Source of the DNA: Prorocentrum cordatum
Lineage: Eukaryota > Sar > Dinophyceae > Prorocentrales > Prorocentraceae
Direction of reading: 5' to 3'
Length of the DNA stretch: 64,000 bases
NCBI GenBank assembly: GCA_963575745.1
Contig: CAUYUJ010001303.1
Span: forward strand, 135,808-199,807
In this document: positions 38,054 through 60,125 of the stretch, piece after piece
Numbering within the stretch: position 1 is the stretch's first letter
How the letters are laid out: each line of letters opens with the position of its first letter
Notes under the pieces: generated by a model
Database searches by the model: none
Told to the model about the DNA's origin: nothing
The model's input: only the letters and a program-made list of their open reading frames with translations
Translations under genes and position numbers: made by a program

Positions 38054-39920
38054 ATGAGGCTATCTGGACTTAACGAGAATAACGCTCTTGCCAATCTCCG
38101 CACAACCTATGGAGACGGTCCTAAGGGAACGACGGCGGCTAAGTCGTCGGGCAATGCAGGACAGGGCGGAGAAGATGACGACAAGAGCGACGCTCCCAAC
38201 ACTGATATCGTATCTTCACACGAAGATGATCGTGGTAGAGGACCACGAGGATCGCCTCCGTGGAGCCCAGGGGGGTCAGACCTCTCTGATGGCGGGGGTG
38301 GGCGCAGGGGGCCCCGAGGCCCCGGCGGACCGCACGACTCGATAGTAATTGACGAGAGCACGCCGTTAGACCAATGGAGACAGGTTGGTAACAACCAGAA
38401 AATGGATTTGTTTGACATCCTTGATGTTACGAACATTCGCGACTGGAAAATGCACGCAATACGCGACATCGCTGGGTCATCGCCCGAGAGCCAGGCAGCG
38501 CAGCACTGGATTGCCGAGGCTATGGGTCCAGCCGTGGAGGATGAGCAACTCAAAGATGCTGGACGATTCCAGCGTCTCGACCTTATGTTCGCAACGAATC
38601 TTATCGAAACATTCAACAAGATGCGAAAGAGTCGATATCAGCCCCCACATCATACTCATTTCCTTCAACAGGCTACTCGCATGGAATTCAGCGCCCAGGC
38701 CGAGGGAAGGCTCATGACTGGACGCGAGATGGTGCGGGCGATTTGTCACTGGTGTTCGGTAAGGTCGGAGTTGGGACAACATCGCATTTCGCGTGACCTC
38801 TTCAAAGTGAAGATAGACCCGCACAAGCCCGATGCTGACCTGTAGCATTTATACAATGAATGGACAGACGTGTATCAACAGCTGGATGGCGCCAAGCCTC
38901 CGTCCGATGTAATGAGGGCCTCAATGCGTGCACACTTTCTTGAACAATGCAGAAAGCCGAGCAAACTGGATGTTGCATGTAAGTTTTATGACTCGCCGAA
39001 AGACAGAACGGGACAAGGTGTCAAGACTTACGAGTGGCTGATGGAGCAGATTGAAGAAATGATGTTGCGAGAAAATGAAGAGTGGAACATCAGCGTGCAC
39101 GAGGGAACCTTAAACCAACGCGCCAGACAAGCGCGATTCGGCGGAGGCGGAGGCAATGACCATCGGAGGAATGCAGGCAGTAAAGCCGCCCCGGCAGAGA
39201 TTGCCACTAAGTTGGGGCAATCTTCGGATGTCATGAAAAAGCGGGAAAACCATGACGAAACCACGTGCAGATACGCGACCAAGGGCGACTTTTGCCCGTA
39301 TGCAGGAAAAGGCTGCCCCTTCAATCACAAGAAGCCGAAGAACGCCGCGCCGGCTCAGCCGAGTGCGGGACGAAAGTCCAGCGCCGCCCCTGCCCAGGAT
39401 AAGAACCCTAGAGGTAGATCAAAGGACAGGGGCCGAAAGGGGCAGGGCCGATCCCAGACCCCGATTGGAAATCGTAGGAAAGGAGGACAGCAGAAGAACA
39501 GAAGTCAGTCACGTGGGAAAGACACCAATATCCCGTGTTACGCATACTCCCGAGACCCCGCGAATTGTCGAGGATTCGAAGACGGATGCCGCAAGGCACA
39601 TAGAAGGCTAACCGATGCTGAGAAGCTGAAGCGTGACAAGTGGGAACAAGCGAAACTTGACGCTGGGCAATCTTTGGGATATAAGCGCACATCCAAACAG
39701 GCCAATGCTGCTGCTGCCAATATCTCTTCGACGGGAAGTAATGGTGGCTCCAGAGCCACTAGTGCTGATTCCGACAAACGCAAAAAGAATGGAGGGAAAA
39801 AACAAAGGCGGTGGCAAAGGCAAACACATGGTCTGTCGCTCTTACAAAGAAACGGGAAAGTGCTCACGCGGGAAAGAATGCTGGTTCGCCAAGACCGCCC
39901 CAGGTCATCCAGTTGCGTGA
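38054..39920 (+). CDS. gag: Copia-like gag with three CCCH zinc fingers
   Basis: Starts at ATG 38054, 24 bases after the tandem array. The N-terminus is Gly/Asp-rich; a helical capsid-like core follows (L-D-Q-W-R-Q-V through K-S-R-Y-Q-P-P). An in-frame TAG at 38843-38845 interrupts it, then coding continues with W-L-M-E-Q-I-E-E-M-M-L-R. The C-terminal third is basic and carries three Cys/His fingers: C-x8-C-x6-C-x3-H (about 39267-39327), C-x9-C-x6-C-x3-H (about 39537-39602) and, after a one-base shift near 39785, C-x8-C-x5-C-x3-K (about 39835-39890). Copia gag usually has a CCHC knuckle; CCCH fingers are more like RNA-binding proteins. Coding hairpins lie at 38136 and 39351. Ends at TGA 39918-39920, in frame with pol. 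Confidence 0.65.
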
Positions 39921-42700
39921 CAATGGCCCCACACTGGCGGCTCAGCCGTCAGTGCTGGAGGGATGACAGACATAATTGTGTTCATGGTCTTCTTTCCTGC
40001 CGTCCTCGTTCGGCAGACGTGGCGAAGCCTGCGTCGGTTGAGCAGAAAACGGGGGGGCTGGAAGAGACCCACTGATTCAATCAGCTTGGGTGCCGTCGCG
40101 CGCCCCGCCCCATTATTCCGGGGCTTCCCAGGGCAACAACAAAACAGCTTTAAACTTTTGGCCATTGCCTCTAGTGCCGATGGAGGAGACTATTGGGATG
40201 CCTCCAAAGGTGAGTTTCAACAGGACGGCTGGAAACAGGTCGAGAGTTTCGTCGATGTCCTTGCGAATTTCCTGTGCCCTCTTTCTCGGGGCGCGATCAA
40301 AAAGTACTGGTACGTTCCCCCTAGTAAGAGTTGCATGCGACATCGGGATAGCAACCGATGCAATCTCCGCGCGCGTTTTCACCCCTCCACTGAGAAGCCG
40401 ACTATCACTTGGAGAAAGGCGCGTCGCCACGACTTGAAAGAGTTGCCTTCGAGTAGCAAAGACAGATGGAAGTTCCCAGGAGAGATGCGCCGACAGATGT
40501 CGACGCAGTCGAGGGCGTCTGTCGCAGAGGTTTTGATCAGAGCATCAGACCTGCAAGATCACGTCTGGCATCTTTGGTTGAAAGACGAGGAGGGGGAAGA
40601 AAGCCCGCACGGCTCAGCCGCTGCTGGACGCACAGGCAAAGACGCTGCGTATCTAGGGGCATTGAGCTTCATTATAGATACCGGGTGCGGGTACAACCTA
40701 ATTGCGGAGAAATGCATTAGGAGCGCAGGTGCAGTGAGATTGATACGAAAGCTTCCGCAATCGATCACTCTGAACACTGCCGGGGAGGAATCTAAGGCCC
40801 TCGGTTCAGTTCGCATCGCGTGTCCCAAATTTAAGGGTGGTAGTTTTAACGCTCTAGTCATGCCGGAGACCCCGTGCGTGATTTCGGTAGGAGAGCGGTG
40901 CATGGATCACGGCTTTAGTTTCTTTTGGCCAGCTGGCCAAAGGCCCTACCTACTGTTGCCCAACGGCCAAAGGGTGGACCTAGCCGTTGAGGGCAAGATA
41001 CCATACTTGACCCTATCAGGCAAAGAGGCGCTGGGTCAGTGGATATGCGCAGCTGCCGCCGGAAGGAGTGAGCCCCTCGAGCGGCGGTGTTGCGTGGCGC
41101 CGGGCGCCAAGGCATTCCTGGACAACGTGGAGTCTACGGGAGGCCCTCCGCCCCACGCTGTCCAGACTCGCGTAACCATAGACCTGCGCGCACATGAGCT
41201 GATTGGTACCCGCAGCTACGCTGATGGGCGGCCGACCGAGATCGCGCCCGTTTTCCCGTCTTTGATCGACTCTGCGGATACCATCACCTACTTCTACTAC
41301 TCGCCTCAGTGGGCCAGCGAATGCGGTTGGAATCGGACGCCAACCGGTATTGCTGCCTCCAATAGTCTCTCAGCTTTGTTCGACCACGGTCAAGCCGTCG
41401 GTCCATTCGACGAGCAGCCCGGCAAAGCCGAGGCTTGTGCTGCCGCATATAGATGCCATTTTGGATGTGGGGTTTCAGGATACCTCCCGTACGAAGTAAG
41501 TAGAGGACTGGACTCCGATGCGTGCAACGCGGCCCCAGGACCCGAGGAGGGTGAGGTTGGAGACGCTGACGGCGTCGACTTGGTCGACGTCGACGCACCG
41601 CCAGATTTAGACCCAGACATTGCGGAGGTTGAGGTGTCGGAGACCCTTGCTGAGCGGCTCAAAAAGGCTGCAGCCTCCCTACCGCACCTTCTAACTCATA
41701 CTCCTAAGAACCCATTTTGCCCAGTGTGCAATTGGGCCAAAGCCATCAGAAAGCAACAGCGCAAAGCGCAGAACAAAGGGCTAAAGGTTTCTCGCCCATA
41801 CGCTACCCCCACTTCGTTCGGACAACTGACGACGATGGATCATTGGTATGCGATGGATGAACTCTCGCGGGGGCTCCACGACGAGACCGCGTGCGTGACT
41901 TTTCGCGGCCGAGCTGCAGATTTTCTCGCCGCTCAGGGTGTGCGCGACAAGTCTGCGGTTCACGTTTGTAACTTTTTAGTAAACCTTAGAGCCCCGGAGG
42001 AAAAGTTAGAATACTGTTATACAGATGGTGCAAGAGAGTTTGCCAGGGCATGTTACGAGCTCAATATTGCCCATGATCCTACCATCCCAGGAAACAAGAA
42101 ACAACATGCTGTCGCCGAGCGTGCGAACGGCGTGGTGCAGATGGGAGCTAGAGCCTTACTCATGCAGGCTGGTCTTCCACCACCATATTGGATCTATGCA
42201 GTTCGATATTTCTGCTTATGCTACAATGCCAGGGCCCCTGCTGAAGGGCAGTCCAGCTGGGAAAGACGCTTCGGATGCCAGTTCAATGCTCCGTTTCTTC
42301 CCTTCGGATCACTTATCCGTTATGTGCCTCCGCCTGAATCCCGTTTCCGCACTGCCAAGACTGGAGCAACGATGATTCCAGGGATATACTTGGGGTATGT
42401 GCACAAAGCGGGGGGATTGGTTGGACCTGATAGTTACGTAATACCTCTGAGACAATTGGACGGACTGAATATGGAGCCAGGACGCATTCCAGAGGGAAAA
42501 CGACCTATGATCGAGAAGTCTGACCAAGTGTACAGCAACATCATAGATGGTTTTGCTGATGACCAGTTGCCTCAGTTTCCTTTGCGACAAGCACGCGAGA
42601 AAGCGGCGACGGAGGTACGTTCCGTCACAATCCCTGCAGAAACGGGAGAAGGTGCGGCCGTTTCAGACGGACCGCAACCAGGACAAGACCGGACAACATG
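39921..42700 (+). CDS. pol: Copia-like pol, protease and integrase part
   Basis: One frame continuous with the end of gag apart from the TGA at 39918. Protease: F-I-I-D-T-G near 40669-40686 is the aspartic active site, followed by L-P-N-G-Q-R and a C-terminal beta-rich part. Integrase: zinc-binding H-x3-H...C-x2-C near 41684-41730, first Asp in T-M-D-H-W-Y near 41834, second in Y-T-D-G-A-R-E-F near 42019, and Glu in A-V-A-E-R-A-N-G near 42111-42134, giving a D-D-E triad. Then comes P-Y-W-I-Y-A-V-R-Y-F, typical of copia. At about 42685-42700 the reading shifts by one base into the next segment. Coding hairpins lie at 39938 and 40610, and a perfect 18-bp palindrome at 40924. Confidence 0.8.
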
Positions 42701-43930
42701 TTCAATGTTGATGATCTTGCCATTCTGGCGCCACCGCCTCCCCAGGAAGGCGAGGGCGCACCGCGTATTGACTCTGAGGCCGATCTTGATGACGACGTTC
42801 CTGGGGGTTTGTATGTGGGCGATGTGCCTTTGGTAGTTGACGGCAAGGGCCCTCGGCGCGACTCCCATCCTGCAGACGAAAACCAAAAACTAGGACTCGC
42901 ACAACTCGAGTATCGTTTGGACAGACAGTCCAACTTCTCAGCGGCTAAGCCGCGTGAGAAAGTCCCAGGGAAAGGGCAGCTTCTTGCCCGAACAAGTCAA
43001 CATTTGGATACAATGGATTTTTTCGAAGACAGACGGATCGTTGCTGGACTTACAAAAGACGAATTAATTCATAATTTCCCGTTGACAGGTCGGCGATTAA
43101 CATGTATCATACGAGCTGTTCTTTATTATGACCCTGATTCTGCGCTTATAACCCGAGTCTGGGTCACGGACCCAGACCCAAAATACAGTGCCCAATGGTT
43201 AAAGAAGTTACCTGAGTCTACAAATCCCGGGATGCATCCTGGACGATGGTTCAACATGACCCAAGCGCAGCGTCGACGGGCCGTGGAACAATATACGGCT
43301 GAAACGAGAGAGTTCTTCGGTATAGAGGATCCCCGTCCTTGCCTAGGTCTTCTGCGTGATATTGGTCTGGATGTGGATGACCCACCGACTCCGCCCGATC
43401 CCGCAGTGGCTCGGCCACTTGCGGCTCTCCCCGAAGCCAGGCTAACTGGACCCAGGGTGGCTGAGCAGCTACGTGGAATACAAAACGGCAGCCTGTGCTG
43501 CACCCCGGGCAGTGGGCGAGGGGCGGCGTCGCGAAACACCCAGGTCTGTCAAACCACATCTCAAACTGACGGTTCATCAGAAGAAGACGTTGCTAACAGA
43601 CACCTGTCAGACGATGAAGACATTTGGTGGAAACAAGCGCGGTATGGAGGAACTATAGCAAGAGACGGGCTACCCTCCGGCTCAGCCGACAGGGGCCCCT
43701 TGTCCGATGATGATAACCGAAAATCTGAGGATAACGAAGAGGCAAGCCTGACGTCGAGTCCGGCGGCCGCCGCGTCGCGGCGAAGCGTGCCTTGAATGCA
43801 ATTACGAGATAACTCAGACACAGATATCAGTCATCGCGACAAAGAAAAGTTCGATTCGCAATACTTCTATAATCCGTGTACAGATATAATATCTGTCATT
43901 GACGAGCCCTTCCAACTTCCCTATGACTGG
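42698..43930 (+). CDS. pol: Copia-like pol, integrase-RT linker
   Basis: Follows the frame shift near 42695. The first 365 codons are acidic/Pro-rich with a folded-looking core (R-L-T-C-I-I-R-A-V-L-Y-Y-D-P-D-S), and resemble the variable linker between integrase and RT in long copia elements. An in-frame TGA at 43796-43798 is followed by coding-like sequence (Y-F-Y-N-P-C-T-D-I-I-S-V) to about 43920, where the frame shifts again into RT. Hairpins at 42942 (read A-A-K-P) and 43678 (read G-S-A-D). Confidence 0.55.
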
Positions 43931-43932
43931 CA

Positions 43933-45020
43933 ATGCGCTCGTATGCCGCCGTAGCCAGATCTGTCTCGAAAGACGAGGCCAAGGCAAACGCAGACGCTCA
44001 AGTTGCTATGAGAAAAGAGTGGGACAGACTGCGTGACATTGGCACGTGGATCGAAGATGGTGTTCGGGAATATGCCGACGATGTTGCCGAACTTAAAGGG
44101 AAGACGGCTCATGTTTGCCGCTTGTTTGCGATCCTTGTTGAAAAGAACTCAGAGTTGCCGCTGGGACACAAAGGTCGCAAGTACGAAGGTCGGGTGGTCT
44201 TGGACGGTTCGAGCGTTAGAGATCAAAACAAAGACGTGGCACTATTCAGGAACTGTCCAGCAGCCCCGCGACAATGCAGGCGAGCAAAGCAGCCGATACT
44301 TACGGGCTGTTTGAAGGCCACAGTATCGAACAAGCTGACGTTCGACAAGATTACACACAATCAAAGTTGGGAGGCACTCTGACTTGGGTTTTCTTGCATC
44401 GTGACGAATGGCCTAGAGCATGGTCCAACATGAGAAACCCCGTATGTCCTCTGTACTTATCTCTATACGGACATCCTGATTCGGGCGGGCACTGGGAACA
44501 GCATTGCGAGGGACATGTCACGGCGAAAGGTTTTGGGAAATGTAGTCCGTGGCGCAGTTGTTACTTCCACAAAGAATTGCAAATTTTCTGGAGCATGTAT
44601 GTCGATGATTTCAAATTGTCGGGACCTGCCGACACGCTGGCCCAGGGATGGAAGTTACTTCAAGAACCTTCGGCAAATTTGCCTAAGGGCATATGCATAG
44701 ATCCTCCAACAGCTGTTTGACGATACTCAGGATGCGAACGCATATTATCAACTCAGACAATTGAGTGGCACGGAGAGTTACCTACGGTACTCCACCCGCC
44801 TCCTCCAAAAGTTTATGAAAAACAAAAAAAAAACACCTCCGTCACATACGAGAGTAGTGAGGAGGAAGCGGGGGGTGACTCGGCATCTCAGATGACCGAG
44901 CCATCCCAGCCGAGAGAACCGAAACTCGTACTTCGTAGAGCTCTTCGGCAAGATGAGCTAAGAGGAATTCGGGCGCAGGGTGGAGCTAGTTGGCCGACCC
45001 GACATGAAGAGACAATGTGT
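43933..45020 (+). CDS. pol: Copia-like pol, reverse transcriptase part
   Basis: Opens with A-M-R-K-E-W-D-R-L-R-D-I-G-T-W and K-Y-E-G-R-V-V-L-D-G, standard for the start of copia RT. A one-base deletion near 44247 breaks the frame before A-A-D-T-Y-G-L-F. The second frame carries A-D-V-R-Q-D-Y-T-Q-S-K-L-G-G, Y-G-H-P-D-S-G-G and the catalytic M-Y-V-D-D near 44596-44610. TGA at 44718-44720 sits where relatives have Gly (G-R-Y-x-G-C); coding continues behind it to TAA at 45018-45020. The expected next segment (V-K-V-I-E-Y-D-M) only appears at about 45905, after a tandem repeat. Confidence 0.75.
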
Positions 45021-45174
45021 TAACTTTGGGTCGGTTTTTCACTCCTCGTGCAAAATTTGAAAATTCGTTTTGAGAACCAGTATTTTTTTCACGTGTAGTG
45101 GGTTATGCCGCGGCTGCCAGTTAAATTCTCAGGTCCGTAGCTGCAATATTACTATCAAAACACTTGCTGGAACC

Positions 45175-45805
45175 GACGGCCGTTTCGAGCCATCTTGACA
45201 CGCATCGACGGTTTTCTGTACTTCTCCCGAGATTCAGGACAGCTACAGAGCTGACACTTACAGAAACCGATTGGACATCATGAGGCCCGTTTGTCTGTCC
45301 CATCTAGAGCTCTGAACTCGGTCTGCTGCTCGAGCTTGGTCCGCCAACCTATTCGCATTCTTCGAGTGATTTTGACGAGTGCTGTCGGTTTTCTGGACTG
45401 AACTCCCGATTCAGAATAGCTACAGAGCTGGTACGCACATGAGAGGATTCTGTATCATTAGGCGCGTGCGTCTGTTTCATCGAGCGGTCTGAACTCGGTT
45501 TGCTACCCGAGCTAGGTCCGCAAAACTATTCGTATTCTTCAAGTTCTCTTTAGAGGCGCTGTCGGTGTTCTGCGCTTAACTGAAGCTGTAGAGTTGCAGA
45601 GCTGGTACGCACCGAAACCGATCCACAATCATCAGAGGCGTTCGGCTGAAGCATCCAGAGCTCCGAACACAGTCTGCCACCCGAGCTAGGTCTGCAAAAC
45701 TACTTGTATGGGGCCGATTTTTTTGAAACTGATGGTGATTGATTTTTCCCGCTTAACTCGACCTGCAGATGAGCTTGAGAGCTCTTTCGCACAGAAATCT
45801 TGAAG
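45175..45805 (+). repeat. 176-bp tandem repeat interrupting pol, about 3.5 copies
   Basis: The anchor AGCTACAGAGCTG or a variant recurs at about 45241, 45418, 45592 and 45770, a period near 176 bp. Units contain GAGCTCTGAACTCGGTCTGC and CGAGCTAGGTCCGCAAAAC. It lies between the RT and RNase H halves of the polyprotein, where no spacer is expected. No clear splice sites were found. Confidence 0.85.
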
Positions 45806-45866
45806 AAAACTTCCTTAATGTGTACCGGGCAGCCCCGCGCGAGAAAAGAGCTCTGCGAGGCTCCCG

Positions 45867-47165: not shown

Positions 47166-47826
47166 TATTGCAGGTAATGTCACTCCTCGGATGGGCAAAG
47201 AGTGTTACAGCAGAAGCTCCGAGAAAACGAGACAGACAGACAGACGGACAGCAGCCGTGCGCCCACTGGCGCGTCGGCAGGCGCTACATGACACATGAAT
47301 TCAAACGTTCGGAGAGGGGGGGGGCGCGCGACGGAAGGGCGGGGCGCGCGACAAGCGGGGACGGGAGGCGAGGCGGAGCGAGAGAGGGGGGGGCGAGCGA
47401 CAATGGGGGGACGACCGAGGAAAACGCGAGGGGGGGAGAAATGCGCGCGCGCTGCAGCCCGCCCGTTAGGACGCGCATGCCGCGTTCACGTGATCCCTCC
47501 AGATATGCTCGTCTTGAATGAGATGTCCCCATCGGCGACCTTCTCCGGCAGCTCGAACAACGTGCGGATGTAAATGTTGAGCCCATTCCAATCTTGGCCG
47601 CCCACACGTGCGAACGTACCGGTCTGTCTGGTGCTGCCGCGTGCCGGGGGTGAAGACTGAGTCCCTCAGCGGGTCGCCCATCTGTGCCCTTGCTACTTGC
47701 CGAACATCAACAACCAATGGTTTCACATGTGTCAAATGACGCAATCCGTCAACGAACGAGTCAGGCGCCACTCCCGAGAAAACGAGAGCGATCGAAAACA
47801 CAACAAAAAGAAGCTCCGATCGTGAG
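47166..47826. other. Gap between pol and the accessory coding block
   Basis: GACAGACAGACAGACGG near 47229, a GGGGGG/GCGCG-rich stretch to 47450, then unassigned sequence. No gene seen. A purine-rich run at 47309-47330 could be a polypurine tract, but nothing confirms it. Confidence 0.45.
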
Positions 47827-49446: not shown

Positions 49447-52382
49447 AAGACGTCGAGTCATGGAGAAATGCAGAAGTCTTCAAGTGCCTCCCTGATAAAT
49501 TGAGAGAGTGGTCCCGTGCGGGGCCCAAAGACGGAACCGTCAAATTTGTGCCGTCAAAGGGCTGGGCTTGGCGTTACACGATGTGGAATAACGGCGTGTT
49601 TTACACGAGAAATGACGCCGTCGTGATTGCATTGAGGGCGGACCTGGAAACAACGTCTCAGACGATATTCCAGCGTGTACACCCCCGGATCTCCCAAGAC
49701 CTGTGGACCGTACTTTGGATTATGTTTGAGCGGAAGGACACTTGCCGTTTCGATTGCGCCCCTCCAGACGTCGACAGAATCCCCGTGGGGGCGTTCTTCC
49801 AAACGCGTCCTGATGAAAAGACGAAGCTGATCAGTGGGGTGTACGCGGAAACCCCAGAAGAGAGCCTTCGTGGTATAATACGAACGCTCGAGCCGGGAGA
49901 TGTGTTTGGTCCCGCCGTCGGCCCAGCCGTTCGGTTCGAGACCCACCGGGGCAGTTATGCGAGTGTGCCAGTGGCGGACCACCGGGATTTTGGCCCCCAA
50001 AAGGTCTGGATTGATATTCGGAGGCCTTCCCCTCGAAAGCCTCCCCGCGGCTCAGCCGTTGGGGAAGGGTGGGGAACGATGTTCGCTTTTCCAGTGGTCA
50101 GAGGAAAACACAGTGTACCTGTGCACGTGGTCGAGAAAGCCCTTGCTGCCGCCGCGCAGGCGGCGCGCTTCGAGGACGCACCCAAGCAGGCAGTGCACTG
50201 GAGGAAAAGACAGCGCCCCTGGACGAGGCCACAGAACTTTGAGAAATGGCTCGCCGAAGACGGACTCAACCCGGATGCTGATGAGGACTCACCGCAAAAG
50301 AAGCCGAAGACTGCGACGGAGGCGCCCGACGACGTGATCGCCGAGGAATGCCAATCAGCAGTCGCGGGCCAATATCAGCCATCATTGGACGACCATGGGA
50401 CTGGGAAACGGGCGGCCAGCGGAACACCTGCCAGCCAACCTCCCAGCATTGAGAATCCTCGCTAGGCCAGTGGAGGCAATGGTGGCGCTCCCCCTCACGG
50501 CTCAGCCGGCGATGATGGGGATCAACCACCATCTGGCGGGTTCCCCTCACGAGACGACACCCCCTCAGGGGGGGGAGGGGGAGGTGGGCCGCCGGACTCG
50601 GGGCCCGCAGAGTCAGAACCCGAGCCCGACGACAATCCTTACATCGGTCGCGGCCCGTGGGGCGTCCTTGAGTATCTTCGCATGAAAGGGAGCCGAGGGC
50701 GTGTTCCGCCCCCCCGGGATGAATGGCGAGTAGTAGTGGACGGAATCCTGGACCTCTATATGGAAGTCACGGACCCAAAATTGAGATTCTGGTCAGGTAA
50801 CTTGGATTTTGCCGAGAAATGGCAGGCGATTGCAGAGATCGCCGAGGTTCATGGTCACTCGTGGATTCCATTTACCGGAGAAGACCTGGCCACTATGTCG
50901 TCCACGGGGAAATCTGTGACGGACTTCTTCCGACCGCTGACCCAGATGATGAATGGGTCTGATCGTAGTTGGTCATTTTCCGTTCATATCGTGTCTGACT
51001 CCACAATTACGTTCAAGGACACATCAGGGACGCCTAAGCCGAGCCTTATGCCTGAGTATCACCTGCGAAATTCGGTGTTTGGAAGCGCACAGTCGGCTAA
51101 GAGTGGAGCACTACTCAATGGTATTGCCGCCGACTCTGCGAACTTTCAGCGGGGCAAACAGTGGTATTATAATGAAGGGACTCACGCCCCAATTCGCTTC
51201 ACTTTCTGGAATCTCAACGACATTGTTGACCAATCGGGCAAATTGAATGGAGTCGGCAGTGGAGGCAAAAGAACTGAGAACCCGTTTACTTTCGCAGGGA
51301 GCCTCAGGCAGATGATACAGGACGCCGTGGATTTGATCGACGATCTAATGAAATGGTCCCAACAGGGGACTATAGACATAATGTATGTCGGCGGGGGCTC
51401 GACGTGTCGGCAAGTAGGTGATGACGGCGTCGGCCCGATGTGGGACGATGTTGTCACTATGGTCCGAGCCAGAATGAAACGTCGGATTGAACACTTTAAA
51501 ACGATAGGATTGTTCCCCAGAGTAATGATCCTCGACGGCGTCAGCCTATCCCGCCAGCTTAGGCACCGCAATGAGGATGCTCTCCATTTCTGTGCTTCAC
51601 ATGACGACTATCAAGTGTTTGACGGGGGGGAATCCCGAAAGGTCCTTGCCGCGGAATTGTGTGCCGATTACATGATTAAATCGGCCAAGCTGGCTGTGCT
51701 ATTTTTCTGTCAGCCTGCCGGCGGCCCAGCCGTCGGGGAAGGACGCGTAACTTGCCCGGTGAGGGAGGACAAGTACGCCCAACAGGAGGCGAAAGTCCAA
51801 GATCTTGTCATGTTTTGGCAGGACTGGTCCCCCGCAGAAAGTAACATTCCCAGGTCGATACTTGGCGCGCTCCCATTTACGGAACAACTGACCGACGAAC
51901 GCTTCTTTGTCGTCTCGAACGGAACTGGAGGTTGTGCTAGATATTCGTTCTATTCAGAAGAATTTAAAGACTTCCTTAAAAGGGGAGGCGTCCATGGGGA
52001 CTTCTTCCCATGGAAAGATGACGCTTACTTTTTGCCCCGAGGAGAAGTCTTCTGTCCTGGAACGCCACCGATGGGGAAGACCCAGAGACCACCGACCGAG
52101 GGAGTCCAGAATGATGAGCCAATGCGTGCCGTACCCAAGGAACTCAACAGAGCAGCGCCAATGGCGATGCCGAGCGGCTTAGCCGTTGCGGCGAGTAGTG
52201 CAGCGCCAGGTGGCATTGCGGTCCCTGTATTTACTAAAGTTTTGACCAGCCAGCCCGGCGTTGTTGCCGCAACTGACAAGGCCAAACCCGTCGGCTCAGC
52301 CGGAACGGGCTCTGGTTCTTGTGCAATGACGGCTCCGTCGCCGCGCGCCCCTTCCGTTGGCTCCTGCAACCAATATCAATGA
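49440..52382 (+). CDS. Accessory ORF 2: SGNH-hydrolase-like segment
   Basis: One frame of about 980 codons with a single TAG at 50463-50465; the sequence around it is continuous and in frame. The first half has no recognised domain (R-I-P-V-G-A-F-F-Q-T-R-P). After a Gly/Pro linker, the second half shows H-I-V-S-D-S-T-I-T-F (near 50986; like the Ser block of SGNH hydrolases), F-W-N-L-N-D (near 51205; like the G-x-N-D block) and D-A-L-H-F-C near 51576 (like the Asp-x-x-His block), in the right order and spacing. The Ala/Pro-rich C-terminus carries hairpins. Hairpins lie at 49919, 50048, 50498, 51722, 52175 and 52292, all read G-x-A. Catalytic function is inference from motif order only. Confidence 0.5.
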
Positions 52383-54075
52383 TATCGAAACCCCCAGGGA
52401 AACAGCTGAAAGGGCCATTCGTGAGAACTGCCCCGAGGGTAGGTTGTCTTTGATTAGTAAGAGGCAAAAGAGCAAGTTTCCAAGGAGGCCGAAAGAAGGA
52501 TGCCCTGGAGAAGAAGAATGCTTGTGGCCGATCCATAAGGAGTATCAGCAGATAAAGAATCTGCCGATTAAAGGTACAAAGACGGGTGAGGTTGCTCGTC
52601 ATAATGTCCTTTGTCCATTCACGGTCGCCAGCGGCAACCTTCACCGGGGCATGATGCCGTTTAATGCATGCCCAGGCGAAGAGGGACGAGCTGCTGAGGT
52701 CGCTGAGGGAAGAGATCCCCCTCACAGCTCGGAACGGAAAACGATCCTAAAAGCTGCGAGTAGCCCAGTGTGGTTTGCCCACCAGATGCTCCAGCCAACG
52801 ACGAGAGTTCCACCGATGACCAAGAACTATCTAGTGCCGAACCGGGCTCGTTTCTTCAGGATCAAAGCAGACAGGTCGATAAGAACGCTGAATGCCACCG
52901 TGGCCGATCGCTTGACTTGGGCAGACTTGAGGTTGACATCCCACAAAGTGGGCAAAGCCCACTGCGTCGAATTAGCGTTGCCTTTCTTCCTAACAAAAGA
53001 TAAGCTTGCGGAGGTCTCAGACCCATCCACCAGCTGGACAAAGCAGTTGCATGGTACGTCAGTATCAACACTTCATGCTATTTTGGAGGGACACCAATTG
53101 CTTCCTTCAAATCCTCGATACGGCGGAAGCGTGAAAACACCTGTGGTTGGTGCGTACTCTTTCCCATGTACTGACAATCCCAGCACTCGCACCACTTACT
53201 CCATTGCGGAGGAGACCTTTCGAGATGGCATTTGGGTTACGGCCGAGATTGTCTACTATGCCAAGACGACCAAATCTATTCGAGGATCACCGACGCAGTA
53301 CGTGGGTCATCCAGAGATTGAATTGTTATTCGAGATGAGACTCTATCATTGGACTGCAGCAGCCGCGTGGGTTACTCAAGCACGGACACATTTGCTGCGC
53401 GCTGCCAGAGATAAAGGATGGAATCTGGAAGTGGACTTCGAGTTTGAGAGATACCCAGACCCAGAACGGACTGAGCACACGAACAAAGTCCAGGATGCTC
53501 AAACGGCTTGAGTCCCCGGCCTGACTTCTTTCGAATGGCAAAAGGGGGCGCGCCCCTATTTGAGGGGAGAAGGCGAAACAGACGAAGAAAAATATGATGA
53601 TATTTGGCCGCGGCTCCAAGACAAGGGAGTCAGACTGACCAAGATTCACCCTGTACATAGGAACGAGGCCTCGGATAGATCAGTGCAGTTGGTCGAGCAG
53701 AATGCAAAGAAGAAAGAGAGGGCAGCTGAAGGGGGCGAGAAGGAGCTGCCGGCGGCTAAGCCGCCCGGCACTCCGTTTTCAATTGATAAAAAGGACTTCC
53801 CTGATCTTGGAAGGGCGCCTGCGAAGCCCGATAGGCCTCATAAGGCGCCGCCCCCGAGGGCTGCTAGTCGGGCCCCTGTTCCTCCTCCTCCTGGTGGACC
53901 GAAAGAAATTCCTGCCCAGAAGGCCCCGCCAGCGATTCGTACTCCATCGAGTCCTCCTGACCAACGGCCGAATGTTACTAGGCAGGCGCATGCTCCACCT
54001 GCGAAAAGGTTTCTACCAGGAAGGCTCCTCCTCCGAGGACCGATCCCAGGTCGGAGGACTTAGGTCAACCGCCAG
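52357..54075 (+). CDS. Accessory ORF 3: ADP-ribosyltransferase-like segment
   Basis: Entered by a frame shift near 52360 from the preceding frame. About 230 residues in, L-H-G-T-S-V-S-T-L-H-A-I-L is followed about 25 residues later by G-A-Y-S-F-P and an aromatic stretch G-I-W-V-T-A-E-I-V-Y-Y. This resembles the H-G-T...G-x-Y order of PARP and related ADP-ribosyltransferase folds; a catalytic Glu is not clearly placed. TGA at 53509-53511 interrupts a frame that continues (F-E-W-Q-K-G-A-R-P) into a long Pro/Lys-rich tail with a hairpin at 53753 (read A-A-K-P). The frame shifts by one at an A run near 54005. Confidence 0.45.
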
Positions 54076-55700
54076 CGATGATGCCTCGATATGATGGAGA
54101 CCACGCTACTTTTATGACTGCCCAGCCACCGGCTAAGTCGAGTGGTTCAGGTGCAGTTGGTAGCAGACCTTGGAGGCCGAGCGTTCCTGATCCCCCGTCA
54201 GAATTAAATATATTCGCCGGGGCCAACGTTTCTGGCTCCTCGTCTGTTACTCGGAGCCCTCAGACAAATGAGCTTCGCTCTAAACAAGCACCTTCCAAGC
54301 AGGCACCCAGTTGGACCAGGCGCTGGGACGACCCGCCTCGCGGCGATGGCGGTCCCGCGGGCGAACGATCCCGGTCTGCGCGCGCTACGCCTGCAGAGGC
54401 GAAGGCAGCTTCTGATGATGCTGGTGTTCCTGAAAGAGATGGAAACGACGATGCACCGAACATGCGCGACGTTAGCCCCACGGCTCAGTCGGGCGGGGGC
54501 CATTCATCCCAGCATTCGCCTGACTTGGAAGGAGATGATGACTTTACTGCCATCATAATGACAATCAAAGATGTCTCGTGTTTGCATTTTGAATATCCGA
54601 AATCCAGTTCAGTGTTGAGAAATGGAAAAAGACTTCTTTTACCACTTGCGATGGCTACAATCGAGAGCAAATGGCGCCCAGGACAACACTGTTCTGAGGA
54701 AAGGGTTCAGAGTTGCTCTTGCATCATACATCAAGGCAGCGAAAAGCATTTACGAAATAAGTATACCAGGCGAGCTGGAGCAGCTAAACACATATTCCCC
54801 CGCGTGGAATGACTTTGCCAATGCTATCGTCGAGCAAATTTTGAAGGCGGTCAGAAATTTTGCGCGCACTCCGATGATAGCGGGCGGACCTCGATGGTCA
54901 AGACATAAAGAGGCAGAAGGTTCTGGGAGCATGGTCAGAGTGCCGACTCCTCCTGCCCCTCCGCCCGGCTCAGCCGGAGCGGAACGAGAGAGCCGCCGTG
55001 ATGCGCAAGATGAGCAGTCGAGTCCGACGCAAGTGCCGTCGGACGACTGAGCATCACATATTAACGATGATGGGGCAAAACATGTTCCCAAAGGCCGAGC
55101 TCCGTCGCCACCGGGGGCCTCAGGCCACCCGGAAGAACAAGACATGGACGTAGAATCGGAGGACTCTCGCACAAAGTTTCCGCGCGAGAAAGACCCTCAA
55201 TTTCTGGAGTCAATGGGTGGCGAAACTTTTCCACATGGACCGGCGTCTACGTGTATGTTCCGAAGATTGCGCCTTCCGCCTACTCCAGATGAAAGACAGG
55301 GGCGGCCGCAGTGCAGGGGCACTTACGATGGGGACCGAGATGTAACGGTGGGGCATGCTGCTGAATTCAAAGAGAAACGATTGTATCTGACAGCAGATGA
55401 ACGCCATCGCATACTTCAGGCTACGCCTGGGCCTCTAAAGCAGATGCTCCAGGACGCCCATATCACGGGCCCTGTACCACCTAACGTCGAAGCCATCCGT
55501 AAGCAAACGGGAATTGCGCTTCGATGCATGGCAGAATTTGTGGAAGATCCAATATTTGCAATATTGGCAGGTCTCAACCAAGACGACGGATCCTTCGCGT
55601 ATGCAAAGGATTATATGCGAGCCGAGTTTCATTCCGATGACTGTCCTGATGGATTTTCTCCGGGCGCCTATGCGTGCTTGCGGCCACTTAACTTATAGTT
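54006..55700 (+). CDS. Accessory ORF 4: disordered and helical segment, unknown
   Basis: After the A-run shift the frame runs Pro/Ser-rich (hairpins at 54130, read P-A-K-S, and 54481, read T-A-Q-S). It shifts again near 54610-54640 into a helical part (F-R-V-A-L-A-S-Y-I-K-A-A-K and I-V-E-Q-I-L-K-A-V-R). Hairpin at 54966 (read G-S-A-G). TGA at 55048-55050 is followed in frame by more coding, including E-E-Q-D-M-D-V-E-S and an alpha-helical stretch to L-R-P-L-N-L, ending at TAG 55696-55698. A variant hairpin at 55111-55132 has stem CCGGG/CCCGG. No domain recognised. Confidence 0.45.
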
Positions 55701-56735
55701 GGAGAAGATGACGGTGAAAACCCGGCTGCCGCAGGCAGTTCGGACACCTGGAGCGGCCTGAGTTTCCGAGCGGATGATTTGGCCAAAGTAATAGGCCAAC
55801 GTGCTGTATTCGTCGCGAGGCACTGCTCGGACTGTGCTAGGTCGTCCGGAGGCTGGGTCTATTTTGGAGACCTGGTGCAGAACTTATATGATGACGGTTT
55901 TACTTTCCAATCGTACGCCTTGGCTGCGCACAGCTTAGCTGTGATGCCAGCAGGGACAATCGATGTTCTGGGGATTTCCCTCAAAGACAGCCCCGAGATT
56001 GCTGGGGCACTCATCCACGCTCTGTAGGACAAACACAATAAAAGATCTCTACAACAGATCAATGGAAGAGAAATGCCCATGCCGATATTCTGTAGGGCAT
56101 GTCAGGGACATTCAACGCTTACCGCTTCGATTGAAAGAATGTACGTCCCGTGCGACCCTGGCCAAGTCAGGAGTCACGGATCTCTTCTGCATATTACTAG
56201 CTTACAGGCATTTTTTGAGTCTACGAGTGGAAATGTTCGCTTTCCGATGGGCAACTCTGGGCTGTGTCATGCCGCAGATTACGATTTATTGCGTTTGCTT
56301 CCGGCACACAACTGCCCAACTATGCCTGACCCCTCGGATTTTCCTCCGTGGCTAAGCCAAAGGAGATATGGACAAGCGCCCATCATAAAAACCGTAGCAT
56401 CTATGGGCAACCAGGCTCGGAATGGGAAGCCGCCAAAGGTGGGTACCTTGAACGTGGAAGACATGCGCCACCTCTGGCCATGTCTCCCCAATCTCAAGCA
56501 TCATGAACAATGGTGTATTATCCTTGTTTTCGCTGGCAGAGTACTCGCCCGCTTCTCGAGCAGAGTATGCCCAGACGGGACATTGGTGTCCCGGGAGGTA
56601 CCGAGATTCACAGACATCGACAAAGCCGTCTCCTTCGTGAGGCAGATGAATCAGATGCGTTGGACGGTGCTCTTTGACCGCGAATTATCTCCGTACGATC
56701 ATCTTCGACAACGCGTCAATTATTGCCTGGGTTAA
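55700..56735 (+). CDS. Accessory ORF 5: RNA 2'-phosphotransferase (Tpt1/KptA)-like
   Basis: Starts after a frame change at a hairpin (55722-55743) and includes an in-frame TAG at 56025-56027. The upstream part (G-G-W-V-Y-F-G-D-L-V-Q-N-L) has winged-helix-like spacing. After the TAG, C-R-A-C-Q-G-H-S near 56088-56111 closely resembles the R-A-x-Q-G-H-S signature of Tpt1/KptA, the NAD-dependent enzyme that removes the splice-junction 2'-phosphate from tRNA. H-G-S-L-L-H-I-T-S near 56178 stands where the family has H-G-T. The Thr of H-G-T and the second conserved Arg are not clear, so activity is doubtful. A variant hairpin at 56343-56365 has TGGCTAAGCCA at its core. Confidence 0.5.
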
Positions 56736-57473
56736 TACAGACGAGAGTCTGATTATTAATTGGGACCGCGAACCAAGATTGGAAACCTCGATTCAAGATC
56801 GAATTATATCTACCCCGTGGGATGGCGATGGGAGATTTCTTTGTTTCCGTTACCACTGGGTGTGGACGGGTTTTGCCAGCTGTCCCGTCTGTAATTGCCC
56901 AATCCGATATACAGATAGGGTCTCACATGATTACGTGACCCAGACATGGAAGTACAAAACTATCCCGCAATCCCTTGAGGCACATGGTATTTGGATAGTT
57001 GTGGAGGATGAAGGATCTCTGTCACGGGATCGTCATGTATACATGGATGCGCGGATAAGGAGACAAGGGGGAGCTTCTGTAACGTTGCGAAAAACGTCGC
57101 CAACAACAATCAGGAGGAGCGAAAATGGGAAACCAGCTTTGTCACAATGGCGGCTGCCGGCGCAATATTTGGCAACGGCCAGCAGCGGAGCTTTTCAGCT
57201 TGGATCCCAGAGGGCGCCGAGGCTCAGCCTCCGGCGCGACATGCTCCTTTCTTTCAATACTCAAGGACTTTGGTTAAGAGATCTATATCGTGGCTAGAAC
57301 ACTCGGCCACAAATGTACAGAGGCGAACTCCACCCATTAACAAATGGTGGCCAAAATTGTGGGCGACTCGTTTTGATCAGTACGCTCGCCCCAGATCCTG
57401 CCCAGCACTACAAGCATTTCGCTGGCCTGCTGAACCAGATGACTTGATCACTCTTAGGATTGGCTGGGCATAA
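56674..57473 (+). CDS. Accessory ORF 6: Cys-pair segment, unknown
   Basis: Entered by a frame shift near 56700. Contains S-C-P-V-C-N-C-P-I near 56878-56904, which could be half of a zinc site, and aromatic-rich strands before it (F-R-Y-H-W-V-W). From about 57147 an overlapping frame continues with A-E-A-Q-P-P to W-A and TAA. A hairpin variant at 57214-57237 (core AGGCTCAGCCT, arms GCGCCG/CGGCGC) lies at this switch. No family recognised. Confidence 0.4.
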
Positions 57474-57485
57474 TGGTTCAACAAC

Positions 57486-59187
57486 ATGAGGGGGGCAAAC
57501 TTTTTTGTTCCTACACTTGCCACAATGGATGATGCCGTACAGTTTGGCATGTCGTGGTTCGGCGTATTTCCTGAAGATACTGCAAACAACGCCAACAACG
57601 ACAACCCTCCTGCGAGGTTACCGGTCGCATGGGAGAACAATTTTAGAGCGCGACCGACTCGCAGTTCTCACTCCGTTGCAAGACGGGTCGGCATGTGTCG
57701 GGACCATCGTCTCATTGTTCCTGCGTTGCGACATGCCGCCGGCTCAGCCGCGAGGGCGCGCGAACAAACACAAATGGATCTGGACCTCAAAGTGATCAGC
57801 GGGCCTAAGGCCGCGTCGATAGCTGACGGGCTCCTCGCACTCGATGAACCTGAGGGACACGTGTACTTTCATCATGAGGACCATCTGTTTAAAATAAGAT
57901 TGTTCGGGGGCGAAGTTCGAGTGGTTGCCGCCCATTTCATAATGGAACACGCGGGAATAAACCTCACTACACCCGGCAGGGTTACCCTGATTGGAACGGC
58001 AGACTATGCGATCCCAACGATCATCAAGACAATAGTGGATGACAATTGGTTAGTACCAGCACAAAACATGGAACTGGGCCTTCGACCCATAAGGATTTTC
58101 GCAATTATTCGTGAGCTAATCAGCTATTTCATATCGGAGGACCACTTTATTGGTTACCCGGGGCGAATCATTCGTCCCGAAATGACGAGCACGGATGAAA
58201 TTGAATCAAAGAAACGAACCGACGCATATGCCTTGGACTGCCGAATTCGCGCCGCTGTAGAGACAGACGACATCGCAGAAACATGGGCCCACAAGATGGG
58301 CAGGCAAGTACAGATTGACGTCCGTCGCCATGGTGCTATAATACAGGAGGCCATAACTTGGCTACAAGATAAGTATCCTGACCCCGGTACCGATCTTCAG
58401 GACATGGAAGATGGTCCTTTTCCGCACTGCATGCGGACTATATGGTGTCGCTGCAGCAACTGCTGCCAGAAGTATATTGCAGGTTATGAACGGTAGGGAT
58501 AATGATCCTGAGCGCGACGGCGAAGCCGAGATCGTGGGGCCACGTGCGCCTGCTGGGCCAAAAGCAAGACCTTTGTCTCGCACGCCGTCTCTTCGACCTG
58601 GCATCTCAGATGCTCAGGCGTCTGAGGAGGCCACTGGTTCCCCACGTTCTGTCGTCGGCTCAGCCGTGCCGACCAGAGAGGCTAACCTACAAGATCCCAA
58701 CGCGAGGGATCGGTCGGATTTGCGACGCGCGCGCGATGCAGCCATGGATGATGCCTCTGTCGCGGCCGCCGATGATGCCGCCAGCCTCGCGCAGCCCGCG
58801 GCGGTGGGCGCCGCCGCAGGCGCTGCCTCGGATGCTGCCAGCAGTGTCGCAGGACACGGCACCGCATACGACCCTGGCCAGTCCTGCCCTACCCGCGTGA
58901 ATTGAATCTTTGCTGGATATCACCTCCACCGGAACAGGATCACGTGGCTTACTAACGATGAATGGTACACTTTGCCTTACTGGACCTGGCTGTCAAAGTG
59001 GGAGCATGATCATCACTTCCCGCCAAGAGAGGCGGCACTGGTTGGAAGTACTGACAGAGAAAGAGGGCGATCTCGAACGCCTCGTCGCATGGACGTACAG
59101 ACAGGAGGATCGGCGACTTCAAATCCGCCGCCTCCGGCGCCGCCCAGGCGAGAGAGTTCGTGGAATCCGTTCGCGGACCTCAACTGA
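57486..59187 (+). CDS. Accessory ORF 7: C-terminal segment, unknown
   Basis: A 336-codon frame from 57486 with well-ordered composition (H-A-G-I-N-L-T-T-P-G-R-V, N-M-E-L-G-L-R-P-I-R-I-F-A-I-I) and a Cys cluster W-C-R-C-S-N-C-C near 58443-58466. It shifts near 58480 into an Ala-rich linker, passes a TGA at 58903-58905, and finishes with a Trp-rich strand (Y-W-T-W-L-S-K-W-E-H) and N-P-F-A-D-L-N before TGA 59185-59187. Hairpins at 57740 and 58656, both read G-S-A. This appears to be the C-terminus of the whole accessory frame. No domain recognised. Confidence 0.45.
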
Positions 59188-59805
59188 GTGCGGCGCGCGT
59201 GACTCCGTCCGCGGCAGGCGCATACAACACACTTTACCCACACGCTAAGCGTGCTGGGCGCTGACCTCTCTACTGGTCGGCTAAGCTGGTCCAGCGGAGA
59301 GAAACTATTTATAACTATAGTGGGAAACGTCGAGCCTCTTCGGCCTTTGGCCCCCTGGCAGCCACCGCTGAGCCGTAAAAGCTTTTTCGGGTTGGCTCCG
59401 GTGGTTGTGCACATGTGCAGGCTGGGGGTGCTGTGGCTGGATGGGCTCTACGCGGCCCGCCGCGGGGGGAGTAAATATGCTCCTCTCCGCCTCAGACTCA
59501 TTTAGAACTTAACTTAGTTTGCATGCAACGAACTGTCCGCGTGAATTGAAGCTGCGTTTCTGCAGCTGTATAACTGCTCAAACCAGCCGACCTCGGCTGG
59601 CAGGGGAGAAAAGGAGCGCGCTGGGGCGCGCGGGCGATTCGTCGTCGTCCGTTCTCGGCCTTCCTCCCCCCTTCCTACTCCTGTGGTTTAGCTTAACGGA
59701 TATCTGTCTTATCAATGTCTCATCCCGCCTCCGCTCTACCTGAGCAGAGTGAACATGAGATCTTAATTCCTTTGTCATCTTACCCCGGTTCTCAGAGGAA
59801 AGACT
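59188..59805. other. 3' non-coding end of the large element (presumed)
   Basis: After the terminal TGA there are no long frames. A hairpin variant lies at 59271-59294, and a perfect one with the core in the opposite sense (CCAGCCGA, loop CC, TCGGCTGG) at 59583-59600. The single 102-bp-type unit follows. Confidence 0.45.
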
Positions 59806-59870
59806 CATCCCTGGGGGGATGCGATCTGCGAAACTGTCGCCACTTTCGAGAGCTGCTGAGGGGCGCAGCA
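59806..59870 (+). repeat. Single copy of the 102-bp array unit
   Basis: CCTGGGGGGATGCGATCTGC, then GAAACTGTCGCCACTTTCGA and GAGCTGCTGAGGGG, matches the array at 37020-38030 over about 60 bp, on the other side of the coding block. Confidence 0.8.
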
Positions 59871-60125
59871 CAGTGGGCATCCCGCACGTCCTTCTCCTGT
59901 TCTTCGTTCCCGACTCCCCATGTCCTTTTCGAACCTGTAGTTGTCGCCCCTCGTTCTTGTATGGTTCTCCTGCGCATCATGCCATAGGCGCGTGTCCCAA
60001 GTAGCTTACATCTCAAACAACGACGGATCCTGCAATTTGATTGTCCACGCAAGTTTCAGCCAGCTCCTCGCTTCCCATGATACAAATGGGTTGGGTACGT
60101 CACAGGGTAATTGTTATTCGTCCCA

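Follow-up and report, generated by a model that had tools for sequence, protein, structure and literature searches.

Small palindromes in or near coding sequence are known from Rickettsia and from algal organelles such as those of Volvox, where they are held to be mobile insertions. Dispersed RNA packaging signals have been described in single-stranded RNA viruses and in hepatitis B virus (PMC4751978, PMC6281560, PMC7612645), and are characterized as degenerate (PMC4751978). The coat-protein operator of phage Qbeta is reported to require A as the final base of its three-nucleotide loop, and its sequence, AUGCAUGUCUAAGACAGCAU, reads as two 4-bp helices with one bulged base between them, a C-G closing pair and the loop UAA (PMC12724129). 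In the dinoflagellates, LTR retrotransposons of the Ty1/Copia type have been described (PMC11453091, PMC5890265), and the word “hairpin” is absent from the main texts of both papers.

The locus analyzed here lies in a window of 64,000 nt from Prorocentrum cordatum (assembly GCA_963575745.1, contig CAUYUJ010001303.1, positions 135,808–199,807, forward strand). Judging by domain order, known motifs and reading by eye, the 38–59 kb block appears to be a Copia-like LTR retroelement: a plus-strand copy at 38,020–59,806, 5′-truncated or rearranged, with pieces 64–89% identical elsewhere in the genome. A gag-like ORF (38,870–40,075) contains two CCCH-type zinc-finger patterns (CRYATKGDFCPYAGKGCPFNH, CYAYSRDPANCRGFEDGCRKAH), identified as pattern matches; a Pfam search of this ORF gave no match, and the homologous ORF in L011 matched zf-CCCH below the cut-off (E = 0.01). 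It is followed by an ORF in which protease- and integrase-like regions were recognized by eye (39,963–42,836; Asp_protease_2 at E = 0.078, below the cut-off), a frame-split reverse-transcriptase-like region (43,927–44,720) with the sequence YVDDF, which we take to be the reverse-transcriptase motif, and an RNase-H-like ORF (45,867–47,165) without a match in the Pfam search, whose ADIGTK motif is presumably of Copia type. The putative order PR-INT-RT-RH was read from the ORFs by eye, with all Pfam matches below the cut-off. Further ORFs occupy the 3′ half, and an approximate 3′ LTR, its start inferred, lies at 59,487–59,806, the 3′ end being shared with L008 and L010. The window copy has no LTR pair; copy C4c (L015, L021) has a terminal direct repeat of 239 bp at 92% identity. 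One genome search with a 1.8-kb piece as query returned 432 first-look candidates, 40 of which were scored and matching. As far as the cited papers describe them, the dinoflagellate Ty1/Copia elements share with this one the terminal repeats and, by known motifs, the pol region, whereas the CCCH-finger patterns in gag, the long additional 3′ coding region and an array of hairpins set it apart.

The array had been noticed in a first-pass annotation as about 25 tiny hairpins at 38–59 kb. The observation holds, and the hairpins far exceed chance. The motif CGGCTNAGCCG has 16 exact matches in the window, where dinucleotide shuffles of its full length lead one to expect 0.09; 15 of these sites lie at 39,351–58,666 and one at 16,911, so that the same annotation erred in seeing none elsewhere. 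Allowing up to one mismatch, 27 sites are found in the window (3.25 expected), 26 of them at 38,136–59,375. A refined count, restricted to C[YMA]G hairpins whose stems reach at least 4 bp and compared between strands and with shuffles, gave 31 sense and 4 antisense hairpins in the window element (shuffle mean 1.35), as opposed to 3 and 5 at window positions 1–37,000 (shuffle mean 2.95). The sense-strand motif is present in all nine copies or part-copies examined, with 7–50 sites per copy and 27–50 in each of the three longest; sense/antisense counts are 20/3 in C4a, 27/5 in C4b, 50/3 in C4c, 10/2 in C45, 16/4 in C49, and 9/2, 8/2 and 7/2 in C69a, C69b and C69c, with shuffle means across copies of 0.35–1.63. 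A covariance model built from the other copies only yielded 22 window matches at E < 0.05, all on the plus strand at 39.3–58.6 kb; one of these, at 43,401, has a TCG loop. Searching 38,000–59,900 against Rfam at the gathering score gave no match.

The motif consists of a Y-M-A triloop closed by a C-G pair on a 4-bp upper stem of variable sequence, rather than of the one-base loop originally proposed. Among 131 CGGC-NNN-GCCG sites from the nine copies, the first loop base varies (T 56, C 44, G 16, A 15), while A stands in third place in 120. The same loop also occurs on stems other than CGGC/GCCG, and such stems of at least 4 bp form at 41 of 326 C[YMA]G contexts in the window element and C4c, compared with 37 of 1,789 in the background. 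In about two thirds the outer stem follows after an excess of 1–2 nt on the 3′ strand: the net excess is 3′ in 84 of 124 hairpins and 5′ in 6, compared with 40 and 37 of 314 controls, and the bulged base is not fixed. Upper and lower stems both vary in sequence, leaving the loop and its closing pair alone common to all. At the 31 refined-motif sites of the window the hairpins fold better with their own flanks than with shuffled partners (mean −15.5 versus −11.9 kcal/mol). The proposal that the flanks are complementary but site-specific, and that these are structured units rather than copies of one longer repeat, is thereby borne out.

The individual hairpins of the window element are all on the plus strand (loop in brackets, E values from the covariance model). 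The core CGGC[TCA]GCCG is found at 39,345–39,368 (3′ bulge A, 6-bp lower stem, E 1.5e-5), 39,932–39,954 (5-bp lower stem), 40,607–40,624 (3′ bulge), 43,673–43,694, 49,325–49,342 and 49,353–49,374 (a pair 30 nt apart), 50,042–50,065 (6-bp lower stem; the best model match, E 1.3e-6), 50,495–50,512 (short lower stem, E 0.24), 52,287–52,309 (5-bp lower stem), 54,960–54,983, 57,734–57,757 (weak lower stem, E 0.16) and 58,650–58,674 (E 0.15). With the same stem, the loop is TAA at 42,935–42,960 and 53,747–53,770 (both with a 6-bp lower stem), CCA at 49,914–49,935 and 51,718–51,736, CAA at 47,112–47,129 (E 0.12) and TTA at 52,169–52,192 (a model match), while 54,124–54,147 reads CGGC[TAA]GTCG with one G-U pair (E 0.048) and 59,273–59,294, upstream of the LTR and kept in L008 and L010, reads CGGC[TAA]GCTG (E 0.23). 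Other stems are CATC[TCA]GATG at 44,879–44,900 (bulge A; its counterparts are CGGC[TCA]GCCG in C4b, CGGC[CCA]GCCG in C4c and CGTC[CCA]GACG in C4a) and at 58,597–58,618, CCGC[TAA]GCGG at 46,923–46,942, CAGC[TCA]GCTG at 47,149–47,171, CCAC[TCA]GTGG at 48,273–48,296 (6-bp lower stem), GGTC[TCA]GACC at 53,010–53,028 (in C4c the stem is kept and the loop is CAA), GGCC[TCA]GGCC at 55,111–55,132, TGGC[TAA]GCCA at 56,344–56,365, AGGC[TCA]GCCT at 57,214–57,237 (6-bp lower stem) and ACGC[TAA]GCGT at 59,237–59,258, where the last sense frame longer than 100 codons ends, with no match among those listed to E 10. Weaker members are CGGC[TAA]GTCG at 38,136–38,146 and CGGC[GAA]GCCG at 58,518–58,528 (neither with a match listed to E 10), CGGC[AAA]GCCG at 41,414–41,437 (E 2.2), CGGC[TCA]GTCG at 54,476–54,498 (E 4.5) and GGCC[TAA]GGCC at 57,796–57,819 (E 1.8).

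The hairpins had been said to interrupt protein frames without closing them; the frames are indeed open, and the hairpins are part of them rather than interruptions. The two at 59,246 and 59,282 fall where the last sense frame longer than 100 codons ends, or past that point, but an open frame of 100 codons runs through both, so that they may still be coding. Relative to the longest open frame (n = 178), the first loop base occupies codon position one in 83 cases, two in 9 and three in 55, with 31 unclear. Within coding sequence the hairpins are under selection at the RNA level, as seen in their excess over synonymous shuffles, covariation and synonymous-site conservation. Synonymous-codon shuffles of the open stretches of six of the nine copies left far fewer hairpins than observed: 1.2 against 17 in the window (200 shuffles, maximum 5), 3.1 against 40 in C4c (maximum 8), 1.6 against 21 in C4b (maximum 7), 1.0 against 13 in C4a (maximum 4) and 0.7 against 15 in C49 (maximum 3); C69a is weak, with 5 hairpins against 0.6 (maximum 4) and a 3′-bulged lower stem in none of the five. 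Hairpin counts exceed those of dinucleotide and synonymous shuffles alike. Fourfold sites are changed in 10 of 126 cells in the core (7.9%) and in 2,813 of 8,423 elsewhere (33.4%). Pairing is kept in 62 of 72 cells with two-sided stem changes, compared with 52–59% in controls, and after one-sided changes only slightly more often than in controls (55 of 156 versus 400 of 1,417); among the one-sided changes G-T outnumbers A-C by 55 to 38 (controls 400 to 449), a modest difference that points to the sense RNA.

These observations bear directly on several other explanations. It is hardly credible that the hairpins are a by-product of protein sequence, arising by chance where G+C-rich codons encode linkers rich in Pro, Ala, Gly and Ser (PAQP, GSA): such repeats do account for most cores in five public viral contigs, those with the highest counts among 20 listed, nearly all of them in one frame per array, but in the element the sites occupy several codon phases, the fourfold sites are frozen and synonymous shuffles give 1.2 hairpins against the 17 observed. 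Sites acting at the DNA level, as cruciforms or single-stranded DNA in, e.g., integration, recombination or replication, are improbable; perfect palindromic cores could extrude, but both the loop and the bulge differ between the strands and mostly have the sense orientation, and the modest G-T preference points the same way.

The first-pass annotation had likened the hairpins to Rickettsia palindromic elements and mitochondrial double-hairpin elements, and mobile palindromes of this kind that colonised the element would explain many similar hairpins within ORFs. They would, however, be expected to leave a given site filled in some related copies and empty in others, and that annotation had itself taken the lack of such differences to count against the idea. 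In 502 hairpin-to-copy comparisons, made in both directions and confined to the aligned stretches of the nine copies, the loop A and all four pairs are kept at the homologous place in 399, pairing is lost by substitution in 79, small gaps fall in the core in 12, and the pairs are kept with another third loop base in 6. Gaps of at least 8 nt account for the remaining 6; in five of these only part of a site is gone, while the sixth is the loss of an entire tandem-run unit, a 30-nt hairpin of C4c missing from C4b. Apart from such tandem units, which also include a duplication in L012 at site 43,678, the aligned stretches of the nine copies held no clean filled/empty hairpin site, a result from the copies seen that comes close to the lack named above. 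Since the only differences in presence or absence seen are tandem-run units, the comparisons give no support to mobile palindromes; the single orientation, the compensatory substitutions in stems and the restriction of shared sequence to loop and closing pair argue in the same direction, and we regard such an origin as very improbable. Like the Rickettsia and algal-organelle palindromes, these are small palindromes in or near coding sequence, but they stand at homologous places and under selection. Of the original interpretation, structured units in excess of shuffled sequence therefore survive, while the analogy with mobile elements and the one-base loop do not.

We suggest instead that the hairpins are one RNA-recognition motif, repeated along an LTR retroelement’s sense RNA. 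It comprises a Y-M-A triloop on a C-G closed 4-bp upper stem of free sequence, a 3′ excess of 1–2 nt in about two thirds of cases and a lower stem that is likewise free in sequence, and its loop would be read by one trans-acting RNA-binding protein. The first loop base is C in place of U at most shared sites of C4c, and less purely so in C49. T in C4b corresponds to C at 11 of 14 sites in C4c and at 5 of 7 in C49; T in the window corresponds to C in C4c at 7 of 8 sites, and T in C4a at 6 of 9, against a background T-to-C rate over all aligned positions of 0.18–0.19. C4c and C49 are only 69% identical. The loops of C49 are mixed (of its CGGC cores, five have CCA or CAA and two TCA), and some C-type loops occur also in the C69 and C4b copies. 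Such a copy-wide difference is the pattern that a shared reader would force.

On balance we take the hairpins for dispersed sites of RNA-protein binding, probably packaging signals that the element’s own Gag would recognize. More weakly, the reader may be this Gag, whose candidate CCCH fingers are pattern matches or sub-cut-off Pfam matches (E 0.01), and the sites may act as packaging or assembly signals that select and condense the long genomic RNA; the part of reader could just as well fall to a host protein. A role in the nuclear export, translational control or stability of the element’s RNA, or in its escape from silencing, through a host or accessory RNA-binding protein, is in our view less likely, although everything that speaks for a selected RNA motif read through its loop fits it equally and the ORFs of the 3′ half have no assigned function; export and decay elements as known generally work with fewer than the dozens of sites found here along the whole RNA. 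As to packaging signals, the hairpins resemble the viral ones in being many stem-loops spread over coding RNA with varied stems and one common loop motif, here selected at the RNA level within coding sequence. They differ in belonging to an LTR retroelement, in being visible from sequence alone, and in an apparently stricter architecture (C-G closure of a 4-bp upper stem, A as the third loop base, an excess on the 3′ strand). With the Qbeta operator they share the triloop with A in third place, the C-G closure and the 4-bp upper stem, but the bulge, an A in Qbeta, is on the 5′ strand there and on the 3′ strand here (84 of 124 versus 6), and here the hairpins recur dozens of times in long copies. 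We know of no relation of the element’s proteins to the Qbeta coat protein. Tentatively, and with less confidence than in the packaging reading, we propose that this retrotransposon RNA carries dozens of copies of one coat-protein operator whose geometry is convergent with Qbeta, and that lineage operator codes, U-M-A versus C-M-A, may be maintained at many sites at once by co-evolution with the Gag zinc fingers.

So far, dispersed packaging signals have had to be mapped experimentally, by cross-linking or selection. The present genome offers a large natural alignment, in which a long copy has dozens of sites and the loops appear to be of two types. The array would be a clear case of strong selection on RNA structure within retrotransposon genes and, if the proposal is true, an RNA-protein code and its co-evolution would be readable from sequence and open to test with a single recombinant protein and short RNAs.

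The first-pass annotation proposed, from the sequence alone, that the window holds more hairpin cores than chance allows, and this is borne out: CGGCTNAGCCG occurs exactly 16 times, against a shuffle expectation of 0.09, with 15 occurrences at 39,351-58,666 and one at 16,911. The latter contradicts the accompanying statement that the rest of the window is free of the core. It is an exact CGGCTTAGCCG (16911-16921) outside the element, where the covariance model described below listed no match up to E 10. With one mismatch allowed the window contains 27 cores, 26 of them at 38.1-59.4 kb. Across the genome (4.13 Gb in 21,875 contigs, the window lying within contig C1303), the core with T as first loop base is barely enriched (9,436 places vs 8,304 for the backwards pattern); CGGCYMAGCCG is enriched (27,560 places on both strands vs 17,369) and, among the 100 matches listed, bunched in some loci. 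Neighbours at most 45 nt apart are in clear excess only in C4c, a homologous copy of the element (11 vs 3.6 expected). Near the start of the window, positions 36-56 hold a relict resembling the spliced leader, with three mismatches to the dinoflagellate sequence; this and the size of the genome are consistent with a dinoflagellate.

The element copy in the window (38.0-59.8 kb) has eight homologous copies or part-copies elsewhere in the genome (C4a, C4b, C4c, C45, C49, C69a, C69b and C69c), at 64-89% identity by piece, making nine in all. These were obtained from twelve, then seventeen genome stretches by a search that used the core string itself, which inflates the number of cores counted there; this bias touches counts of other stems, the sense/antisense contrast and covariation less. 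Read by eye, the carrier looks like a Copia-like LTR element, with frames that would encode a gag with CCCH-type finger patterns, a protease, an integrase, the reverse-transcriptase motif YVDDF and ADIGTK, a Copia-type motif of the RNase-H-like frame; Pfam matches to these domains fell below the cut-off. C4c is bounded by 239-bp terminal direct repeats, 92% identical (C4:553,953-578,479, about 24.5 kb). The C69 copies (loci L011, L012 and L023, C69:1-30000) are gag-pol units, 92-96% identical, that stand head-to-tail and, judged from start positions, recur every ~10.95 kb; they gave no blastn match to window 44.3-59.4 kb.

The long form has further open reading frames in its 3' half, several of them long in window 49500-58496. 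Pfam returned no match for five of these, and one 3' frame used as query had no match among phage records. Homologous proteins were sought twice (~8,000 scored candidates each), with none below E 0.001 or 0.01, and a search of viral contigs reaching close relatives only found no relative of one frame. One 3'-half frame contains HIVSDSTI and, further on, a W-N-ND stretch that may point to SGNH hydrolases. The window copy also carries a ~970-bp insertion (44930-45901) between the regions resembling reverse transcriptase and RNase H, with a diverged internal repeat inside; it is missing at that place in locus L006 and, by eye at the 5' edge, in L007 too. A ~545-bp insertion (47233-47780), missing in L006 and L007 and with direct repeat CGAGAAAACGAGA on both sides, is a filled/empty site of another kind of element than the hairpins. 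A tandem array of ~102 bp (37022-38021) adjoins the element's 5' end, and one unit akin to it borders the 3' end (59808-59882), which gives the impression of a copy lodged within the array. In C4c, a TA-rich repeat (L016:3034-3504, reading YIYIYI) interrupts the reverse-transcriptase-like region.

The hairpin differs from its initial description as CGGCTnAGCCG with a one-base loop. At 131 CGGC-NNN-GCCG sites in the nine copies, the first loop base is T in 56, C in 44, G in 16 and A in 15, and the third is A in 120; because the first varies while the third is nearly always A, the loop is a triloop, and a one-base loop is ruled out. Stems other than CGGC also form, with at least 4 bp around C[YMA]G at 41 of 326 places in the window copy and C4c, vs 37 of 1,789 in the background. 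An outer helix of at least 3 bp follows a net excess of 1-2 nt on the 3' strand in 84 of 124 hairpins from four copies, the remainder showing a 5'-strand excess (6), a symmetric defect (1) or no outer helix (33); among 314 control triloop hairpins the figures are 40 (3' excess), 37 (5' excess), 15 (symmetric) and 222 (none). The flanks had been described as complementary in a site-specific way, and own flanks indeed fold better than partner-shuffled ones in all five copies tested. The hairpin lies within the predicted minimum-energy fold of 51 nt at 28/31 sites in the window copy, 21/27 in C4b, 38/50 in C4c and 13/16 in C49, vs 26/60, 27/60, 18/60 and 18/49 for control triloops, but the 6-nt-loop controls of C4c outdo the motif in folding against shuffles (mean z -3.4 vs -1.7), the G+C content of control hairpins being unmatched. 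Our hairpin table comprises 30 hairpins and five weaker members and omits 48,927, 49,658 and 50,565, which have hardly any lower stem; Rfam gave no match in the element region.

We regard it as almost certain that the hairpins are a selected RNA motif. C[YMA]G hairpins number 31 sense and 4 antisense in the window copy and 50 and 3 in C4c (dinucleotide-shuffle means 1.35 and 1.63), with 7 to 50 motifs per copy or part-copy; the window outside the element has 3 and 5 (shuffle mean 2.95). They might instead be a by-product of protein repeats, and in viral contigs, where 90 stretches hold two cores close together, the five read by frame are mostly such repeats. This explanation is contradicted in the element by synonymous-codon shuffles of open stretches in six copies (17 vs 1.2 in the window copy, 40 vs 3.1 in C4c) and by the spread over codon phases: in the longest open frame (n=178) the first loop base falls on position 1 in 83 cases, position 2 in 9 and position 3 in 55, with 31 unclear. 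The shuffle result is weakest in C69a (5 vs 0.6, shuffle maximum 4), where none of five hairpins has a 3'-bulged lower stem. Of cells at fourfold-degenerate sites, 10 of 126 in the CGGC core vary from copy to copy, and 2,813 of 8,423 elsewhere. Where both sides of a stem have changed, pairing survives in 62 of 72 cells (controls 52-59%). Such cells are not independent events, since the nine copies, several of them part-copies, share ancestry and were compared both ways. At homologous site 44,888, for example, the window copy has CATC[TCA]GATG, C4b CGGC[TCA]GCCG, C4c CGGC[CCA]GCCG and C4a CGTC[CCA]GACG. One-sided changes weigh against selection on RNA structure, as 55 of 156 keep pairing, just above controls (400 of 1,417). 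Among them G-T exceeds A-C (55 vs 38; controls 400 vs 449), a modest sign that the folding molecule is the sense RNA.

The earlier likening to mobile palindromic elements is not supported. In 502 hairpin-to-copy comparisons, made in both directions over blastn-aligned stretches only, 399 keep the hairpin at the homologous place and 79 have lost it by substitution; the rest comprise small gaps in the core (12), pairs kept with another third loop base (6) and gaps of at least 8 nt (6). Five of these longer gaps are partial and one is a whole unit of a tandem run of three in C4c, missing in C4b. At site 43,678 a tandem duplication is present in L012; presence or absence was seen in these copies only as units of tandem runs.

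A covariance model was trained on 19 hairpins from C4b, C4c and C49 only, picked for pairing, which makes their 93.7% paired cells circular. In the window, no site of which was in training although homologous sites were, it gives 22 matches with E<0.05, every one of them between 39.3 and 58.6 kb and on the + strand, including one TCG loop (43,401); the first match outside the element ranks 24th (E 0.15). In 13 copy loci 95 of 96 matches (E up to 0.1, training hairpins included) lie on the element's sense strand. Among 20 non-element loci, of which 13 had been taken because they contain a core, the model lists 22 matches at E 10 or less, and three of these have E<0.05.

The first loop base differs jointly between copies. 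The CGGC cores of C4c are C-type in 21 cases (CCA 13, CAA 8) and T-type in two, those of the window copy TCA or TAA in 14 and CCA or CAA in three, and C49 is mixed (five C-type, two T-type). Loop T of the first-named copy is matched by C at the homologous place in the second at 11/14 sites (C4b/C4c), 5/7 (C4b/C49), 7/8 (window copy/C4c) and 6/9 (C4a/C4c), against a T>C background of 0.18-0.19 over all aligned positions. At only 69% identity between C4c and C49, loop C of C4c is C in C49 at 10/13 sites, and 11/12 in reverse. Such a joint difference at many sites would be expected under a shared reader.

The hairpins are thus very probably read by a trans-acting protein, which would contact loop and bulge. 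That this protein would be the element's own Gag is a weaker proposition. CCHC knuckles are usual in Gag, and CCCH patterns stand in their place here; finger sequences of the C-type copy L015 (a piece of C4c) differ somewhat from those of T-type copies, which is suggestive only as to Gag as reader.

The Qbeta operator requires a three-nucleotide loop ending in A and an eight-pair stem, and its quoted sequence has 4+4 pairs with a 5' bulge (PMC12724129). Loop, closure and upper stem are common to it and our motif, but the bulge lies on the opposite strand, and we therefore do not class the motif with it. Open-access titles and abstract openings revealed no hairpin array of this kind in a retrotransposon; hepatitis B virus and viruses with single-stranded RNA genomes are known to have dispersed packaging signals (PMC4751978, PMC6281560, PMC7612645). 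We lean slightly towards the hairpins being putative packaging signals for Gag: they occur along the whole RNA, in the C69 copies as well, as would be expected of packaging signals rather than of the control of one gene.
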